From an uncultured Prevotellaceae bacterium (GTDB lineage Bacteria; Bacteroidota; Bacteroidia; Bacteroidales; Muribaculaceae), in contig ONKF01000010.1 of assembly GCA_900318335.1 (NCBI GenBank), forward strand, positions 1 through 64,000: a stretch of 64,000 nucleotides of DNA. Reading direction: 5' to 3'. The notes under the pieces were generated by a model, which made no database searches, was not told where the DNA came from, and was given only the letters and a program-made list of their open reading frames with translations. The translations under genes were made by a program, and so were the position numbers. Shown piece after piece: positions 7,148 through 16,440 of the stretch (positions are counted from its first letter, which is position 1; the number at the start of each line of letters is the position of its first letter).

Positions 7148-9778
7148 TTACCTGCGGGGTTTCTTGAAGACGGTTTCCTCGACGGGGAGCAAGGGCTCCG
7201 GTGACGAGTCGGGGCGCTCGAACTGTGCATTCCTGATCTTGCCTGCCGGGCCGCTGAGCAGCATGTCGATGAGTTCGGTGACGTCGACGATGTTGACCTG
7301 GCCGTTACCGTCCACGTCGGCGTTGGCGACATTGATGGCACCCAGGTTACTGTTGAGCAGGGCATCGATGAGGGCGGTGACATCGACGATGTTGACCTGA
7401 CCGTTATCGTCGACGTCTCCGGTGAGGACGCCAATTCCGGCATAGGGTTCCCAGTTATTGATGTCCCAATTCCAATGGTAGACATCCCAATTCTTGGCTG
7501 CGGCCTGGTTGACCTGGCTGGTGGTGATGACATTGCCATCGGCAGAACCATCTGAGGGGTCGACATCGACGTAGGCATAAATAATTCCCTTATCAGTGGC
7601 GTCGCGTGCGGGCAGGGCGTTGACAAGCTGTCCCATCTGGCCCGCTTGGATGTTGTTATAAAAGATAGGTAAGAGGTCCAGTTCACGGCAATTGTCCACT
7701 TTCACGCTGGTGAGCAGATTGGATTGGGCATACAATGTCTGTAGGGCGCTGTGGCCGCTGACGTCGAGGCTGGTCAAGAGGTTACCACTACAACGTAAAT
7801 CCTCGAGGGCACTGCAGCCGCTGACGTCGAGGTCCGTCAGCTCATTACCGTTGCATTCCAGGTAGGTGAGCTGGAGGTGCTGACCCAAGGTGAGTTGGGA
7901 AATCTCATTACCACTGCATGCAAGTTCACGCAACCGGCCCTGCATGGAGACATCGAGGGTGCCCGAAATCCAGTTGTAGCGGCAGTCAAGAGAATAGAGC
8001 CCCTCGGTGCAGCCGCTGACGTCGAGGCTGGTCAACCGGTTGCTGTTGCACCACAGGTAGTAGAGCTTATGGTTGTGGCTGACGTCAAGTTCGGACAGCG
8101 GGTTCCCGTTACAGAGGAGGTACCGGAGATTCTCGCACGTAGTGATGTCTAATTCGGTCAATGGGTTATACTCGCATTCGAGGTATTCGAGGTTGGTGCA
8201 ACCATAAACGGCCAATTGGGTCAGGGCGCAATTAGAGCAAGTGATTTCATTAAGATCTGGATTGTCCGAGGCTATCAGCGTCGTCAACTCGGGATGCTCC
8301 GAAACATTAATCTGGGTGAGCAGATTGTCATGGCACCACAGTTCCTTCAGACCGGACATTTCACCCAGATTCAAGCTGGAAATGGAACAATTGGAGCACT
8401 CGAGGTAGTCTATCTTAGTACAGTCCAACAAGCCGGTAATTTCCTCAAGGTCATAGTTCAGCATACAGTTCAGCAACCTCAACTTGGTCAAGCCCGTCAC
8501 GTTGAGCGAGGTCAAGTTGTTGCGATAGCAATACAGTTGCTCCAGACCGGGGCAGAAGGTAGCGTCAAGCGAGGGCAACGCACAACACTCGACCGAGAGA
8601 TAGGTCAGCGCTGTACAGGTCGAGAGACCCGTAATCGAGGTGAGAGAGTAATTGCTGTTACAATCCAATTCGGTCATTGAGGTACAGTTCGTCACATCCA
8701 GGCTGGTCAAGTTGCAATAGCGGCAGTGGAGCATCTCCAGGTCTGTGTTGCCCGACACCCTGAGATACCGCAACTGGCTCTTGTTATAGACGGCGAGGCT
8801 CGTCAACCGGTTGTTGCGGGCCCACAGCGTCTGCAGGTTGGTCATGTCGTCCACACCGGGCAGGCTGGTGATGGCGCAGTCCTCGCAGTCGAGGTAGGTC
8901 AAGGCGGTGCAGTCGGCCAGGCCCACAATGGCATCAAGGGAATAATTGTAGTAGCACTTCAGGGTTTTCAATGCCGTGCAGCCCGACACGTCAAGCGAGT
9001 TCAAGTCGCAGTTGTTGCACAGGAGGTCGGTCAACAGCGTATTGCCCGAGACACGCAACCTTGCCAAGTTACTCTTGTACGTCACGTCCAGTGTGGTCAG
9101 TTTGTTGTTACGCGCCAGCAGGGTCTGCAGGTTGTCCATGTCGCTGAGGCCGCTCAGGCTGGTGATGGCGCAATCCTCGCAATCCAGATAGGTGAGTGCC
9201 GTGCAGGTCTCTAAACCCTGGATGCTCGACAAGCCGGGATTCTCGTAGCAACGTAGGGCCTGCAACGCGGTACAATTTCGCACATCAAAATTGGTAATAG
9301 CATTACGCATGCAGTTAAGTGTCGTCAAGTTCGGGTTATTATTCACCCAGAACGTCCTCAGGGCGCTGTGGTCCATTACCGAGAAGTAGGTCAGCTGGTT
9401 GTTTTGGAGATACAATTGCTCCAGAGCCGTGTTAGTGTTCACACTGATTGACGTCAACTTGTTGTATCCCACATTGAGGTAAGTCAACTTGGTGTTAGAG
9501 CTCACATCAATTGTGGACAGATTGTTATTAAACACATCCAGTCTTGTCAATTGGGTGAAATACTGGACACCGGTCATGTCAGAGATGCCCTTGTATGACA
9601 GGTCCAGCGTGGTGCGGGCATTGAGCTGGGCAGTGGTGATGACGCCGCTGGGATACTCACTCATCAGGTAGGAGCGGAAGACGGCATCAGGGAAGTTGGT
9701 GGCATTGATGGTCACGTCGGCACGGGCGGCCAGCGCTGCCATCAGCACAATCGAAAGGAAGAGTAGCGCTTTTTTCAT
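7148..9778 (-). CDS. Secreted leucine-rich repeat protein with C-terminal dockerin-like repeats
   Basis: An 876-residue exported protein. After a signal peptide (MKKALLFLSIVLMAALAARA) comes a short cap (DVTINATNFPDAVFRSYL) and about 650 residues of leucine-rich repeats of the pattern L..LDVSGCTAL..L.C..N (residues ~50-700). These form a curved solenoid typically used for binding proteins or glycans. The C-terminal part has two dockerin-type segments (GDVDDNGQVNIVDVTALID and ADVDGNGQVNIVDVTELID) and ends in a basic tail (FKKPRR). No catalytic domain is visible, so an adhesion or surface-binding role is inferred. The stop codon is followed directly by a GCGAGC-type repeat. Start 9784 is an alternative. 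Confidence 0.9.
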   Translation of the reverse strand: MKKALLFLSIVLMAALAARADVTINATNFPDAVFRSYLMSEYPSGVITTAQLNARTTLDLSYKGISDMTGVQYFTQLTRLDVFNNNLSTIDVSSNTKLTYLNVGYNKLTSISVNTNTALEQLYLQNNQLTYFSVMDHSALRTFWVNNNPNLTTLNCMRNAITNFDVRNCTALQALRCYENPGLSSIQGLETCTALTYLDCEDCAITSLSGLSDMDNLQTLLARNNKLTTLDVTYKSNLARLRVSGNTLLTDLLCNNCDLNSLDVSGCTALKTLKCYYNYSLDAIVGLADCTALTYLDCEDCAITSLPGVDDMTNLQTLWARNNRLTSLAVYNKSQLRYLRVSGNTDLEMLHCRYCNLTSLDVTNCTSMTELDCNSNYSLTSITGLSTCTALTYLSVECCALPSLDATFCPGLEQLYCYRNNLTSLNVTGLTKLRLLNCMLNYDLEEITGLLDCTKIDYLECSNCSISSLNLGEMSGLKELWCHDNLLTQINVSEHPELTTLIASDNPDLNEITCSNCALTQLAVYGCTNLEYLECEYNPLTELDITTCENLRYLLCNGNPLSELDVSHNHKLYYLWCNSNRLTSLDVSGCTEGLYSLDCRYNWISGTLDVSMQGRLRELACSGNEISQLTLGQHLQLTYLECNGNELTDLDVSGCSALEDLRCSGNLLTSLDVSGHSALQTLYAQSNLLTSVKVDNCRELDLLPIFYNNIQAGQMGQLVNALPARDATDKGIIYAYVDVDPSDGSADGNVITTSQVNQAAAKNWDVYHWNWDINNWEPYAGIGVLTGDVDDNGQVNIVDVTALIDALLNSNLGAINVANADVDGNGQVNIVDVTELIDMLLSGPAGKIRNAQFERPDSSPEPLLPVEETVFKKPRR

Positions 9779-9821
9779 AATCATATGGGTTTAATGGTTA
9801 ATACTGTCATCATATCACCCA

Positions 9822-11773: not shown

Positions 11774-12934
11774 TTATTTTCTGATTGTCAATGAGATGGC
11801 ACCCTCGGGGAAACTGTCGCGGTCACGGCACACCAGCGCCAGGTAGCCTCCACCACCCGCACCGGGCATCTTCCATGCCAGCACCCCGTCCATGGCACCG
11901 TAGCGGTCGATGTAATCCTGCACGCCGGGTTGAATCATGGCAGGGAACATCGCCACCTGGGCATCAAACGAAGCCTTGTAGGCCGACGCAAAGGCGGCCA
12001 GGTCCATACGCTGGATGGCATCCCAGCAACGGTCGGCAGCAGCAGCCAGGGCGCGCACCTTGACGGGCGTGATATCCTTGCCCTCGACCACGCTGCAGCC
12101 AGGCCGGCGCGGGAACATGGCAATCATGCACAGGTGGTCCTCGAGCCAGCCCAGCAGGGCCGCATCACTGGTATATTCTATCTTCTCGGGCCAGTAGCTG
12201 CCGTTGTAGTAGTGGCGGGCAAGACCAGGCACACAGATGCCGATGGCGTCCTGAGCCCCGCTGACAATGCCGTCGCTGCGCTCGGGGTCGTTCTCGAGGC
12301 AGAAGACCAGCCGTGCCAGCATCTCGGGGTCCATGTCGGGCAACCGGTAGGGCCACACCCGCTTGATCGTGTTGCGGGTGCTGGTCGACAAGCCGCAACG
12401 CTCGCGTATCTCAAACGTGGGCTCCAGCGAGATGGTCAACGCCCAGCCGGGGGCATGGCACGAGACATAGGGCTGGTCAATCCACGTCCCCGCCAAGTCC
12501 AGGCGGGTGGGCAGCTGGCTCACAGCCTGCTTCAGGTCGGTGCTGCTGCGGGCAGTCAAGCCCTCTCGGGGTTCACGCTTGAGCACGATGTACTCCATGC
12601 CCCGCTTGCGGCACAGCTCACGCTTGTCCTCACGGTCGCCGTCCTCGTTCACCACCAGGCAGTCGGGCCGGACAATGTCCAGGGTGGGCAGGAAGTCCAG
12701 ATAGCCCTCACCCTGGTTGATGTAAGCCTCCTTGACATAACGGATGGCCCTCACCATGAACAGGCGCTCCTGCTCACTGTACATGGTCTTGTGCCCCTTC
12801 AGGCGCTCGATTGTGCTGTCGCTGCCGATGCCCACATACAGGTCGCCATACTGGGACGCCTGCCTGAAGAATTCCACATGACCCGAGTGCAGCAGATCAT
12901 AACAGCCCGATACAAAAACCTTCTTCTCGCTCAC
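11774..12934 (-). CDS. Fusion of HIGH-type nucleotidyltransferase and GHMP sugar kinase
   Basis: A 386-residue cytoplasmic protein with two catalytic modules. Residues 1-135: a cytidylyltransferase-like fold with GCYDLLHSGH (10-19, the HxGH motif) and ARSSTDLK (128-135, the ISSTxxR-type motif). Residues ~140-386: a GHMP kinase with RLDLAGTWID (144-153), GLSTSTRNTI (181-190) and KMPGAGGGGY (355-364), closest in style to fucokinase or heptose-7-phosphate kinase. Such a protein could phosphorylate a sugar at C1 and transfer a nucleotide to it. This differs from Fkp, the known Bacteroides fucokinase/GDP-fucose pyrophosphorylase, which is much longer and has a different nucleotidyltransferase. The neighbouring mutarotase and FucP suggest L-fucose as substrate; the nucleotide is unknown. 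It is the first gene of the cluster. Confidence 0.85.
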   Translation of the reverse strand: MSEKKVFVSGCYDLLHSGHVEFFRQASQYGDLYVGIGSDSTIERLKGHKTMYSEQERLFMVRAIRYVKEAYINQGEGYLDFLPTLDIVRPDCLVVNEDGDREDKRELCRKRGMEYIVLKREPREGLTARSSTDLKQAVSQLPTRLDLAGTWIDQPYVSCHAPGWALTISLEPTFEIRERCGLSTSTRNTIKRVWPYRLPDMDPEMLARLVFCLENDPERSDGIVSGAQDAIGICVPGLARHYYNGSYWPEKIEYTSDAALLGWLEDHLCMIAMFPRRPGCSVVEGKDITPVKVRALAAAADRCWDAIQRMDLAAFASAYKASFDAQVAMFPAMIQPGVQDYIDRYGAMDGVLAWKMPGAGGGGYLALVCRDRDSFPEGAISLTIRK

Positions 12935-12960
12935 TTCATTTCATTTTTTCGTTCCAGTGG

Positions 12961-12968
12961 CAAAGGTA
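12961..12968 (-). promoter_or_regulatory. -7 element upstream of the fucose-related cluster
   Basis: Minus strand TACCTTTG 27 bp before the start codon. No TTTG at the expected distance, so a single-element match only. Confidence 0.5.
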
Positions 12969-13058
12969 CAACTTCCCGTTCATAGGGCCATTATCAAAAC
13001 CTGAAAAATATTCACCCTCCATGCCACAGGTGAAGCGTCGATAAGTGCAGCCGCGCCA

Positions 13059-14414
13059 TTATTGGGGAATGTTTTGGAGGTTCTTCTCGATATCGGCATC
13101 AGTGACCCTGTAATTCACCAAGTCGCCGTTAAGGTACTGGTCATAGGCACTCATGTCGATAAGGCCGTGGCCCGAGAGGTTGAACAGGATCACTTTCTCC
13201 TCGCCCGTCTGCTTGCATTTATTGGCCTCACGGATGGCCGCAGCGATGGCATGGCTCGACTCGGGGGCAGGGATGATGCCCTCGGTGCGGGCAAACAGCA
13301 TTCCCGCATCAAAGGACTCGAGCTGAGGAATATCAACGCCATGCATCAGCCCATCCTTGATCAACTGGGAAATAATGACGCCGGCCCCATGATAGCGCAG
13401 GCCACCGGCATGGATGTTGGCGGGCTTGAACGAGTGGCCCAGCGTGAACATGGGCAGCAGGGGAGTGTAGCCGGCCTCGTCGCCGAAGTCGTAGCGGAAC
13501 TCGCCACGCGTGAGCTTCGGGCAACTCTCGGGCTCGGCGGCAATGAACTCAGTCTGCTTGCCATCCTTAAGATTGTGGCGCATAAACGGGAAAGCGATGC
13601 CACCAAAGTTGGACCCGCCACCGAAGCAGGCAATCACCACGTCGGGGTATTCGCCCGCCATTTCCATCTGCTTCTCGGCCTCGAGACCTATAATCGTCTG
13701 ATGCAGTCCCACATGATTGAGAACCGAACCCAGGGTGTACTTGCAATTGGGCGTCGTCGTGGCCAGCTCCACCGCCTCCGAGATTGCCGTTCCCAGCGAG
13801 CCGGGGTGATGGGGATCACGCGTGATAATGTCCTTGCCCGCACGGGTCGACATCGACGGTGAACCCGTGACAGCGGCGCCAAAGGTACGCATGATTGACG
13901 AGCGGTAGGGTTTCTGCTGCATGGATATCTTCACCTGATAGACCGCTGCCTCAAGGCCAAACACCGAGGCAGCATAGGCCAACGCCGCACCCCATTGCCC
14001 GGCACCGGTCTCGGTGGTCACGTTGGTGGTGCCTTCCTGCTTGGCATAGTAGCACTGGGCCAATGCCGAATTGATTTTGTGGGATCCCAACGGGTTGACC
14101 GACTCGTTCTTGAAATAAATGTGAGCGGGTGTCTGCAACGCTTCCTCCAAGCCATAGGCCCGAACCAGGGGCGTGGAACGGTAGAATCGGTATTTCTCAA
14201 TGACTTCGTCGGGGATTGGGATAAAACGGTGTTCGGTATCAAGTTCCTGGACACAACACTCGCGCGGGAATATATGGGCCAGGTCGTCCACTCCCAGCGG
14301 CTGCTTGGTAGCAGGGTGGATGGGAGGCATGGGCTTGATGGGCATGTCGGCCTGGATGTTATACCATGATGTAGGTAACTCACTCTCTTGCAAAATAAAT
14401 CTCTTCTGTTTCAT
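13059..14414 (-). CDS. trpB: Tryptophan synthase beta chain, long TrpB2 type
   Basis: A pyridoxal-phosphate enzyme that condenses indole with serine to give tryptophan. Lys113 in SHKIN is the cofactor-binding lysine and GGGSN (265-269) holds the phosphate. The 451-aa length and the N-terminal extension (FILQESELPTSWYNIQADMP) mark it as the TrpB2 group, which is often encoded away from trpA, as here. Expression appears to be set by transcription attenuation: a leader peptide with three Trp codons, a terminator hairpin and an alternative hairpin lie between promoter and start codon. That link to tryptophan supply supports a true role in tryptophan synthesis or indole salvage. Confidence 0.95.
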   Translation of the reverse strand: MKQKRFILQESELPTSWYNIQADMPIKPMPPIHPATKQPLGVDDLAHIFPRECCVQELDTEHRFIPIPDEVIEKYRFYRSTPLVRAYGLEEALQTPAHIYFKNESVNPLGSHKINSALAQCYYAKQEGTTNVTTETGAGQWGAALAYAASVFGLEAAVYQVKISMQQKPYRSSIMRTFGAAVTGSPSMSTRAGKDIITRDPHHPGSLGTAISEAVELATTTPNCKYTLGSVLNHVGLHQTIIGLEAEKQMEMAGEYPDVVIACFGGGSNFGGIAFPFMRHNLKDGKQTEFIAAEPESCPKLTRGEFRYDFGDEAGYTPLLPMFTLGHSFKPANIHAGGLRYHGAGVIISQLIKDGLMHGVDIPQLESFDAGMLFARTEGIIPAPESSHAIAAAIREANKCKQTGEEKVILFNLSGHGLIDMSAYDQYLNGDLVNYRVTDADIEKNLQNIPQ

Positions 14415-14435
14415 TTTAGGTATATTGATAATGAT

Positions 14436-14475
14436 TAAAAATTTAAAGGGCCTGTCGCAAGTACGACAGACCCTT
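14436..14475 (-). terminator. Attenuator terminator hairpin in the trpB leader
   Basis: On the minus strand AAGGGTCTGTCG (14475-14464) pairs over 12 positions with CGACAGGCCCTT (14457-14446) around a 6-nt loop, followed by AAATTTTT. It ends ~20 nt before the trpB start codon, as expected of an attenuator. Confidence 0.85.
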
Positions 14476-14502
14476 CATTGATATATTCTTATGATTCTAT
14501 AC

Positions 14503-14549
14503 GGTCAGGCGACTCACGACTTTTTCAATCTTGAGCTACGCCACCACCA
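14503..14549 (-). promoter_or_regulatory. Alternative hairpin segments of the trp attenuator
   Basis: Segment 1 (GGCG and CTCA after the Trp codons) can pair with segment 2 (TGAG and CGCC, about 14517-14507). Segment 2 (AGTCGCCTGACC, 14514-14503) can instead pair with GGTCTGTCGTACT of the terminator's 5' arm, with two mismatches and one bulge, which would block the terminator. A ribosome stalled on Trp codons frees segment 2; one reaching the stop codon covers it. Confidence 0.7.
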
Positions 14550-14570
14550 AAAAAACGAATTAATTTTCAT
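14514..14570 (-). CDS. trp leader peptide with three consecutive Trp codons
   Basis: A short frame of 18 codons plus stop, MKINSFFWWWRSSRLKKS, encoded upstream of trpB. The TGG-TGG-TGG run (14549-14541) is the hallmark of a trp leader peptide; its translation senses charged tRNA-Trp. The TGA stop (14516-14514) overlaps the segment that would form the antiterminator. The start codon lies ~28 nt downstream of the -7 element, so the peptide is the first translated frame on the transcript. It was too short to stand out by length; the call rests on Trp codons, position and hairpins together. Confidence 0.85.
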   Translation of the reverse strand: MKINSFFWWWRSSRLKKS

Positions 14571-14597
14571 AATTACATCATATTTATGTCAACGCCG

Positions 14598-14629
14598 CAA
14601 AATTATATCCAATATTTTTCACCTGCAAG
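14598..14629 (-). promoter_or_regulatory. Promoter of the trp leader-trpB unit
   Basis: Minus strand CTTG (14629-14626), 20 bp, TAATTTTG (14605-14598). Confidence 0.7.
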
Positions 14630-14740
14630 AATAATTCAAAAAAAATGCTCCTCTACCCGCAGAACTATAAAAATCGGTGAAGGCCGAGCCTCGACCACTC
14701 GAGCGAAAGTTCATGAAATGAAATGTAATTGCAGATTTGA

Positions 14741-14772
14741 TTTGGATTTATGCAGGAAATGGCTTAACTTTG
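14741..14772 (+). promoter_or_regulatory. Promoter of the DUF853 ATPase gene
   Basis: TTTG (14741-14744), 20 bp, TAACTTTG (14765-14772). The ~80-nt leader carries ACAAACTGG repeats. Confidence 0.8.
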
Positions 14773-14856
14773 TGACCAGCAAACGACACAAACAAACTGG
14801 ACAAACTGGACAAAACAAACATAATAAACAAAGTATAAAAAATAAACGACAAGACT

Positions 14857-16440
14857 ATGTACACTCAAGAGAACGGATTCTACATCGCCCACGGGCCCAA
14901 CGGACCTATCAGCATCCTGGGCAACATGGCCAACCGCCACGGCCTGATTGCCGGCGCCACGGGTACAGGTAAGACGGTGACCCTGCAAGTCATTGCCGAG
15001 AGTTTCTGCAAGGCAGGAGTGCCCTGCTTCATGGCTGACATGAAGGGCGACCTCTCGGGCGTGAGCCAACCAGGCAAACTGTCCGGCTTTATCGAGAAGA
15101 GGCTGCCCGAGTTCGGCATCGAGCAGGAGAGCCTCACCTTTGAGGGCTGCCCCGTCAGGTTCTATGACGTCTATGGCGAGCAGGGCATCCAGATGCGCTC
15201 CACCATCGGCGAGATGGGACCGGACCTGATGGCTCGCATCATGGGCCTGAACGAGACCCAAACGGGCGTGCTCAACATCCTGTACCGTATCCTCGACGAC
15301 AAGGGCATCATGCTCGACGACCTCAAGGACATGCGCTTAGCCCTCGACTGGCTTTCCAAGCACGCCAAGGAGTACACCACCCAATATGGCAACGTGTCAC
15401 CAGCGAGCATCGGCGCCATCCAGCGGTCATTGCTGCAGCTCGAGAACCAGGGCGCGGACAAATTCTTTGGCATCCCGTCATTTGACATCATGGACCTGCT
15501 GGCAACACGCGACGGCAAGGGCATCCTGAGCGTCCTCGCTGCCGACAAGCTGATGCTGCAGCCCAAACTCTATTCCACCTTCCTGCTGTGGCTGCTCAGT
15601 GAGCTCTACAGCACACTTCCCGAGGTGGGTGACCTGGAGAAGCCTAAACTGGTATTCTTCTTTGACGAGGCCCACATGCTGTTTGAGGACACGAGCAAAG
15701 CGCTCACCGACAAGATTGAGCAAGTCATCCGCCTCATCCGCAGTAAGGGCGTGGGCATCTTCTTCATTTCACAGCTGCCCACCGACATTCCCGACGTGAT
15801 TCTGGGCCAGTTGGGCAATAGGGTACAGCATGCCCTGCGTGCCTACACGCCACGCGACCAGAAGGCCGTCAAAGTGGCTGCCGAGACCTTCCGCGCCAAC
15901 CCCGAATTCAAGACCGAGGACGCCATCCTGGAACTGGAAACAGGCGAGGCCCTGGTGTCCTTCCTTGACGAGAAAGGCGCACCGAGCGTGGTCGAACGGG
16001 CCAAGGTCCTGTTCCCCCTGAGCCAGATCGGCGCCATCACCGAGGGGCAACGCCTCGACATCATGAACGCCAACAGCGACGTCAACTCCAAGTACAAGGA
16101 GGTGAAGAACAGGGAAAGCGCATTTGAGGTCTTTACCCGCGAAGCCGAGGCCGAAGCCAAGGCCGCCGAAGAGGCCGCTGCCGCCAAGGAGGCCGAGAAA
16201 GAGGAGAAATCCAAGAAAAAGGAGAAGACCATCTGGGATAAAGTCTGGAAGGCTGTCGTCACGGCCGTGACAGGCACCATCGCCACCATCCTGGGCAAGA
16301 CGGTATCTGACGCCATCACCGGCAAGAAGAGCAAGAACAGCAGCGTCAAGGATGCTGCAGGACGTGCTGTTAAAAACGCCACCAGTGCTGCCGGACGCCA
16401 GATCCTGCGCGATGTATTGGGCAACGTCATCAAGAAGTAA
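14857..16440 (+). CDS. DUF853 (YjgR-like) HerA/FtsK-type P-loop ATPase
   Basis: A 527-residue cytoplasmic ATPase of the HerA-like family with Walker A GATGTGKT (33-40) and Walker B LVFFFDEAH (about 265-273). The segments GLIAGATGTGKTVTLQ, FMADMKGDLSG and SQLPTDIPDVILGQLGNRVQHALR are typical of the DUF853/YjgR group, whose cellular role is not established. After residue ~430 comes an Ala/Glu/Lys-rich helix (coiled coil or linker) and a hydrophobic/basic C-terminal region (KAVVTAVTGTIATILGKTVSDAITG). The start is the first ATG after the promoter. It stands alone and ends at a hairpin terminator. Confidence 0.9.
   Translation: MYTQENGFYIAHGPNGPISILGNMANRHGLIAGATGTGKTVTLQVIAESFCKAGVPCFMADMKGDLSGVSQPGKLSGFIEKRLPEFGIEQESLTFEGCPVRFYDVYGEQGIQMRSTIGEMGPDLMARIMGLNETQTGVLNILYRILDDKGIMLDDLKDMRLALDWLSKHAKEYTTQYGNVSPASIGAIQRSLLQLENQGADKFFGIPSFDIMDLLATRDGKGILSVLAADKLMLQPKLYSTFLLWLLSELYSTLPEVGDLEKPKLVFFFDEAHMLFEDTSKALTDKIEQVIRLIRSKGVGIFFISQLPTDIPDVILGQLGNRVQHALRAYTPRDQKAVKVAAETFRANPEFKTEDAILELETGEALVSFLDEKGAPSVVERAKVLFPLSQIGAITEGQRLDIMNANSDVNSKYKEVKNRESAFEVFTREAEAEAKAAEEAAAAKEAEKEEKSKKKEKTIWDKVWKAVVTAVTGTIATILGKTVSDAITGKKSKNSSVKDAAGRAVKNATSAAGRQILRDVLGNVIKK

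Follow-up and report, generated by a model that had tools for sequence, protein, structure and literature searches.

A gene for the type 2 tryptophan synthase beta chain (trpB2) that stands alone behind what looks like the leader of a trp operon raises the question of whether it is switched by tryptophan, and what such a switch would serve. The gene lies in a 64,000-nucleotide stretch of an uncultured Prevotellaceae bacterium (contig ONKF01000010.1, positions 1 to 64,000; hereafter 'the window'), a probable gut bacterium. Genes of the largest trpB2 group are reported to lie apart from operons, mostly in species with an additional trpB1 inside an operon (Merkl 2007, PMC1854888, in the text available). 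A preliminary description of the window noted that TrpB2 genes are usually regarded as orphans outside trp regulation and read the sequence upstream of this one as a complete attenuator.

Anatomy of the trpB2 locus

The minus strand holds, in 5' to 3' order, a Bacteroidetes-like promoter, a leader gene, a hairpin, a linker, a terminator and trpB2, with the following features:

14598..14628, minus strand: predicted promoter of the Bacteroidetes type, with TTG at 14628-14626, 20 nt and TAATTTTG at 14605-14598 (sequence and TTGC conservation)
14514..14570, minus strand: leader peptide gene encoding MKINSFFWWWRSSRLKKS, including the stop UGA at 14516-14514 (sequence and 31-leader alignment)
14541..14549, minus strand: three adjacent Trp codons, the predicted stall site (sequence and 31-leader alignment)
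14508..14542, minus strand: protector (1:2) hairpin, GGCG..CUCA with UGAG..CGCC (pairing kept in 31 leaders)
14454..14520, minus strand: antiterminator, GUCGUGAG at 14520-14513 with CUUGCGAC at 14461-14454, and GACC at 14506-14503 with GGUC at 14472-14469 (pairing and order-wide co-variation)
14444..14477, minus strand: intrinsic terminator stem-loop, followed by the tail AATTTTTAAT (terminator scan and pairing in 31 leaders)
13059..14414, minus strand: trpB2, stand-alone tryptophan synthase beta chain type 2, 451 aa (curated profile models)

The product is assigned to TrpB2 by TIGR01415 (593.6 bits, cut-off 518.85) and NF009057 (689.1 bits, cut-off 366), and scores 148.8 bits against the TrpB1 model TIGR00263, under its cut-off of 392.45. 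The whole leader folds at -52.3 kcal/mol, compared to -29.2 +/- 3.3 in shuffles (z -7.0; 0 of 200 as low).

The preliminary description had placed a consensus promoter here, of which the TTG..TAATTTTG pair holds up as Bacteroidetes-like; a sigma-70 promoter is rejected, as a scan gives 3 sites compared to 2.1 in shuffles, which is chance level. The arrangement resembles the -33/-7 promoter type of Bacteroidetes, and the TTGC end of TAATTTTG is conserved in at least 90% of the rows of the 31-leader alignment introduced below. Its terminator is also present, with a stem at 14477-14444 of 15 pairs (7 of them G-C), and the accompanying U-tract turns out to be weak, with five T after AA. This is the single terminator-like site in 12850-14900, where shuffles of the region average 2.3; as one site is not above chance, the weight of the terminator comes from conservation, with 98.0% of cells paired across the 31 leaders and double changes at 3 pairs.

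The divergent neighbour of trpB2 is a gene for a HerA-like helicase (14857-16440; PF05872, 652.5 bits). Beside genes for an MFS transporter and a rhamnose mutarotase, 11774-12934 encodes a protein of 386 aa whose N-terminal domain is cytidylyltransferase-like and whose long C-terminal region has no Pfam match. A leucine-rich-repeat protein of 878 aa, encoded at 7148-9784, carries a dockerin type I domain close to its end.

Leader peptide and protector hairpin in relatives

The near relatives of the window's trpB2 come mostly from rumen Prevotellaceae MAGs. Our alignment (A1) comprises 31 leaders of the window's type taken from TrpB2 relatives, the window included, one further leader (L168) being omitted though it matches the leader pattern. 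All 31 have an ATG frame that runs through at least two Trp codons, in the patterns WWW (26), WCW (4) and YWW (1), so that the comparison originally proposed, of Trp codons and frame among related TrpB2 leaders, comes out in favour of an attenuator. These open frames predict the translated leader peptide that a ribosome-mediated trp attenuator requires. In the window, the 18-residue peptide first described is indeed encoded at 14570-14517, with its Trp codons at 14549-14541, and its UGA lies inside GUCGUGAG, on the antiterminator as had been stated. Over the 31 leaders, the stop codon falls between 4 nt before and 13 nt after the start of GUCGUGAG, and within it in 24.

The leader hairpin is likewise as it had been drawn: GGCG 14542-14539 and CUCA 14535-14532 pair with UGAG 14516-14513 and CGCC 14511-14508. 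Its pairing is kept in 96.0% of cells across the 31 leaders and its pairs are mostly invariant; because these pairs and those of the Prevotellaceae antiterminator hardly vary, both rest on conservation.

Short leader genes are described as an abundant feature upstream of bacterial genes (PMC4833913, in the text available), and a leader peptide could raise translation of the following gene by re-initiation (Korolev 2016) rather than attenuate its transcription. This is scarcely credible for trpB2, as the peak distance given for Bacteroidetes is 11-14 bp (PMC4833913, same text), whereas here 99 nt, containing the terminator, separate the stop codon from the gene.

Antiterminator and predicted switching

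The antiterminator of the preliminary description exists in the alignment and was incomplete. Its pairing AGTCG:CGTACT is rejected as the entire antiterminator, with 85.7% of cells paired and a middle pair that fails in 19 of 31 leaders, and is retained as an inner part; the main arm, GUCGURAG in its general form and GUCGUGAG in the window, pairs with the terminator loop CUUGCGAC. This main helix is paired in 98.8% of cells across the 31 leaders and the second helix, GACC:GGUC, in 92.7%. Over 81 leaders from the whole order (below), just 174 of 312 cells of GACC:GGUC pair, and we therefore reject it as an order-wide feature and regard it as local to Prevotellaceae.

For switch folding, transcripts were cut at the end of CUUGCGAC, the ribosome was represented by a 30-nt footprint, and an antiterminator was called when at least 5 of the 8 main pairs formed. 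Under these settings, the antiterminator forms with the ribosome on the first, second or third Trp codon in 26, 28 and 29 of the 31 leaders, respectively, compared to 5 without a ribosome and none with the ribosome on the stop codon, the latter partly by construction as the footprint masks the arm; in two leaders (L016 and L157) it is absent in every folded state. For the window, stalls on all three Trp codons yield the antiterminator when the 5' end is set at 14592, and with the longer 5' end of A1 those on codons 2 and 3 do and that on codon 1 does not. In the complete window transcript, the terminator is the minimum-energy fold in all states, so the switch must be kinetic, decided by the order of synthesis. 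As computed, protector, antiterminator and terminator exclude one another.

From the anatomy, the conservation and the gene content, all read directly from sequence, we infer stalling, termination and induction as follows. When Trp is scarce, a ribosome would stall at the Trp codons and cover the 5' arm of the protector hairpin; the freed segment from GUCGUGAG to GACC would then pair with the 5' arm and loop of the terminator (GGUC..CUUGCGAC), the terminator would not form and trpB2 would be transcribed. When Trp is plentiful, a ribosome reaching the stop codon within GUCGUGAG would mask the arm and let the terminator form, and with no translation the protector hairpin would sequester GUCGUGAG, again with the terminator as the outcome. 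The attenuator reading of the preliminary description is supported, and we consider it very probable that the leader acts as a ribosome-mediated transcription attenuator of the Bacteroid-trp kind on a lone TrpB2 gene, on when charged tRNA-Trp is short.

The enterobacterial trp leader (RF00513, E. coli trpL) has a peptide with adjacent Trp codons, a protector, an antiterminator and a terminator. The window's leader would work by the same set of elements, and differs in having its stop codon within the antiterminator arm and one gene outside an operon as its target; RF00513 had no match in our Rfam searches. Two further systems can be compared through the text available on them. In Corynebacterium diphtheriae, candidate attenuators precede two trpB loci of one genome (PMC1262725), and at trpB2A the trpB2 gene is followed by trpA, whereas the TrpB2-family gene of the window stands alone. 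In Chlamydia trachomatis, Trp-regulated Trp salvage by tryptophan synthase is described for trpRBA (PMC7755916, PMC6504234), with the repressors TrpR and YtgR and a TrpBA pair where the window has a leader peptide and TrpB2. In the open-licence literature, as far as its accessible text goes, we found no description of a TrpB2 attenuator in Bacteroidetes.

An order-wide element related to Bacteroid-trp

We turned the 31 A1 leaders into a covariance model (R1) and ran it on 393 Bacteroidales genomes, of which 167 have a match at E <=0.01; in the window genome it finds no site besides the trpB2 leader and its mirror match. We examined the best 90 hits, with the window included and opposite-strand matches to the same terminator omitted. 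A first gene was found for 87 of them (3 are without a first ORF) and is a trp gene in 82, as named by the best match to references and NCBIfam: TrpB1 in 50, TrpE in 24 (best matches, of which the two tested score 425.9 and 414.1, below the trpE cut-off of 517.7), TrpB2 in 5 (window included), TrpD in 2, TrpC in 1 (259.8, just below its cut-off of 260) and other in 5. An ATG-started Trp-rich peptide is present in 84 of the best 90 hits, one of them (L291) seemingly spurious, and missing in 6.

At L206 and L227, it is trpD (anthranilate phosphoribosyltransferase) that the leader precedes as the first gene. A single contig of another genome (G398) carries three separate Trp leaders (L214, L233 and L243), before trpC, trpE and trpB1, as if the pieces of a split trp operon each had their own leader.

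The order alignment contains 81 of the 90 loci, after dropping the near copies L220 and L235 and those with no clear leader (L275, L280, L283, L286, L287, L288 and L291). For any given pair of the main helix, 54-62 of the 81 rows have letters on both sides, the others being gapped, and 407 of the 460 two-sided cells of GUCGURAG:CUYRCGAC pair. Shuffled alignments give 85.7 +/- 0.6%, with none of 500 reaching the observed value, and slid versions of the helix 15-55%. One pair of this helix co-varies over the order (G-C 33, G-U 6, A-U 12 and A-C 1, with 4 other mismatches and 25 gapped rows; Fisher p 1e-6, uncorrected for kinship), the lone A-C cell belonging to L214, which has no UCGURAG core. 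Among leaders with the core motif, the loop position facing a UCGUGAG arm is C in 23 leaders, U in 6 and gapped in 5, and that facing a UCGUAAG arm is U in 13 and never C. For stop codons that fall within the motif, the position facing UGA is C in 14 leaders, U in 3 and gapped in 4, and that facing UAA is U in 9. Both G-C and A-U occur within families f20 and f78, as well as f28 if an unaligned row is read by eye, and both G-U and A-U within f5, f59 and f92. Compensatory changes, which had been suggested as a check, are found in the double changes of the terminator and in the co-variation of the main antiterminator helix across the order.

The core UCGURAG is located near the stop codon in 49 of the 84 peptides, the other 35 having no core within 60 nt. 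Of the 49 core leaders, 32 have their stop codon within the motif and 17 outside it, and together with the 24 of 31 TrpB2 leaders above this rejects a stop codon always within the antiterminator arm. These order-wide counts indicate that the pairing arm is general and that a stop within it is common, not universal.

Bacteroid-trp (RF01692) is described as a candidate cis-regulatory RNA (Weinberg 2010, PMC2864571, in the text available). It shares with the window's leader the phylum, a Trp-rich leader peptide, the core AAAGUCGURAG and an end-to-end alignment (14593-14465, model 1-131 of 131); unlike a member of the family, the window scores 30.0 bits, under the gathering score of 49, and none of the 19 distinct TrpB2 leaders scanned against Rfam passes that cut-off. 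RF01692 does pass at 7 loci in a set of 20, all 7 before TrpB1, and at L180 and L187, and R1 matches the same places. We conclude that the TrpB2 leader and Bacteroid-trp share descent as one and the same element, of which the window holds a divergent copy. The RF01692 model stops within the 5' arm of the terminator and so lacks the loop antiterminator; this helix is a detail added to Bacteroid-trp, and pairing from arm to terminator loop offers a concrete mechanism for this RNA. At L180, a DUF805b RNA motif (709-747; 38 bits, cut-off 35.6) lies some 660 bases upstream of the trp leader.

TrpB2 leaders across Bacteroidales

TrpB2 is present in 142 of the 393 Bacteroidales genomes, and 300 nt upstream of it were read in 106 of these, window included. 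A Trp-rich peptide precedes 43 of the 106 genes, followed by a terminator in 41, one of which (G294, at -265) looks spurious; G438 and G103 have the peptide and no terminator by the rule used. As controls, leader plus terminator arise in 2 of 2120 shuffled upstreams, on 1 of 106 reverse strands and before none of 555 other genes; this last set began as 558 ORFs, of which 3 were positive, all of them TrpB2 genes, and were taken out. Attenuation of TrpB2 is not unique to the window, and the view of TrpB2 as an orphan outside trp regulation fails for Bacteroidales. A leader before every TrpB2 is also rejected, as 65 of the 106 genes are without leader plus terminator, including TrpB2 genes of about 70% identity within the window's genus.

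The preliminary description had named homologous leaders with the terminator and without the Trp peptide as evidence against itself. Three loci (L074, L099 and L109) are of this kind, with a terminator directly after the promoter in the last 250 nt upstream of TrpB2 and no Trp peptide; what is missing there is the whole leader, and they sit on mostly leader-less branches of the tree, for which reasons we read them as decayed copies. Either decay or some other control would account for them. They would also fit a plain terminator or insulator whose Trp codons arose by chance, as would the number of terminator-like sites in the region, no higher than in shuffles. Given that the Trp frame is kept in 31 of 31 aligned leaders, that shuffled upstreams so rarely yield leader and terminator and that the leader model matches trp genes order-wide, we regard a plain terminator as very improbable and retain the attenuator. 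The leader-less TrpB2 genes and the terminator-only relatives indicate that the leader is dispensable. In a TrpB2 tree of 170 rows (FastTree only, with long branches), it is scattered, with 14 yes/no changes, and an old leader lost many times is the likely history.

A probable role in indole salvage

The window genome, a draft that is 92.9% complete, has no match over cut-off to trpA, trpC (IGPS), trpD or trpB1, with trpE, trpF and trpG outside the search. Over 120 genomes, including the window's, matches over cut-off number 21 for trpA, 20 for IGPS (trpC), 22 for trpD and 26 for trpB1. Within the window's genus, all four genes occur just in G004 and G060, and trpB1 alone in G043; none of the 22 genomes of this genus with an observed leader (window included) has any of the four over cut-off, and in G020 a contig end is too near trpB2 to judge the leader. 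The window's TrpB2 is the sole Trp-synthetic enzyme among those searched, and no extra beside a trp operon.

A Trp pathway that is present and was missed, on absent contigs or through non-homologous enzymes, would leave TrpB2 as one enzyme among several. Rumen bacteria, for example, make Trp from indole-3-acetate by reductive carboxylation. The draft state of the genome and the three genes outside the search leave room for this, whereas the joint lack of over-cut-off matches in 22 of 22 leader-bearing genomes, in a genus where G004 and G060 do have all four genes, makes it rather unlikely.

Indole salvage presupposes a genome that makes no indole from IGP, and this is what the window's draft, without trpA and trpC over cut-off, presents. 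The same genome encodes a tryptophanase (NF053783, 921 bits, cut-off 750), and TIGR02617 has matches, below cut-off, in 20 of the 22 leader-bearing genomes of the genus, the protein being named for the window genome only. TrpB2 enzymes are described as binding free indole tightly and using O-phosphoserine (PMC11917138, citing Hettwer and Sterner 2002 and Busch 2014), and one TrpB2 as taking part in indole salvage (Hiyama 2014, cited in PMC11085991), in the text available of each source. TrpB2 would thus join indole and (phospho)serine into Trp, with indole coming from the cell's own tryptophanase and from neighbours, and the switch would hold TrpB2 off during Trp degradation.

The NCBIfam label of the family stops at 'TrpB-like pyridoxal phosphate-dependent enzyme' and the TrpB2 activity is predicted, which would also suit a real attenuator on an enzyme of another beta-replacement or salvage reaction (for example, with another indole-like substrate), with Trp merely as the signal. 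We think this unlikely, as trp operons are controlled by the same kind of element and the closest solved structures are tryptophan synthase beta chains: 6hul, 4qys and 6hte, of which two carry the deposited name tryptophan synthase beta chain 2. A role of TrpB2 in indole salvage, induced by Trp starvation and opposed by tryptophanase, is probable, the enzyme reaction being predicted from sequence, and the whole explanation, attenuator plus indole salvage, seems to us highly likely.

More tentatively, the two enzymes might form a two-way store, in which tryptophanase converts spare Trp to community-shared indole and the attenuated TrpB2 reclaims indole when Trp is gone; if so, one leader RNA would set the direction and prevent a futile cycle in cells unable to make Trp. 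Leader control of the trp-operon type, in a genome in which searches for trpA, trpC, trpD and trpB1 came up empty, links TrpB2 to the supply of Trp and opens indole salvage by gut and rumen Bacteroidales to direct testing. The table in PMC9026213, in the text available, places indole users that have TrpA and TrpB in a class of their own and has no class for TrpB2 alone, and our results suggest that counting TrpAB alone would miss indole users of the TrpB2-only kind.
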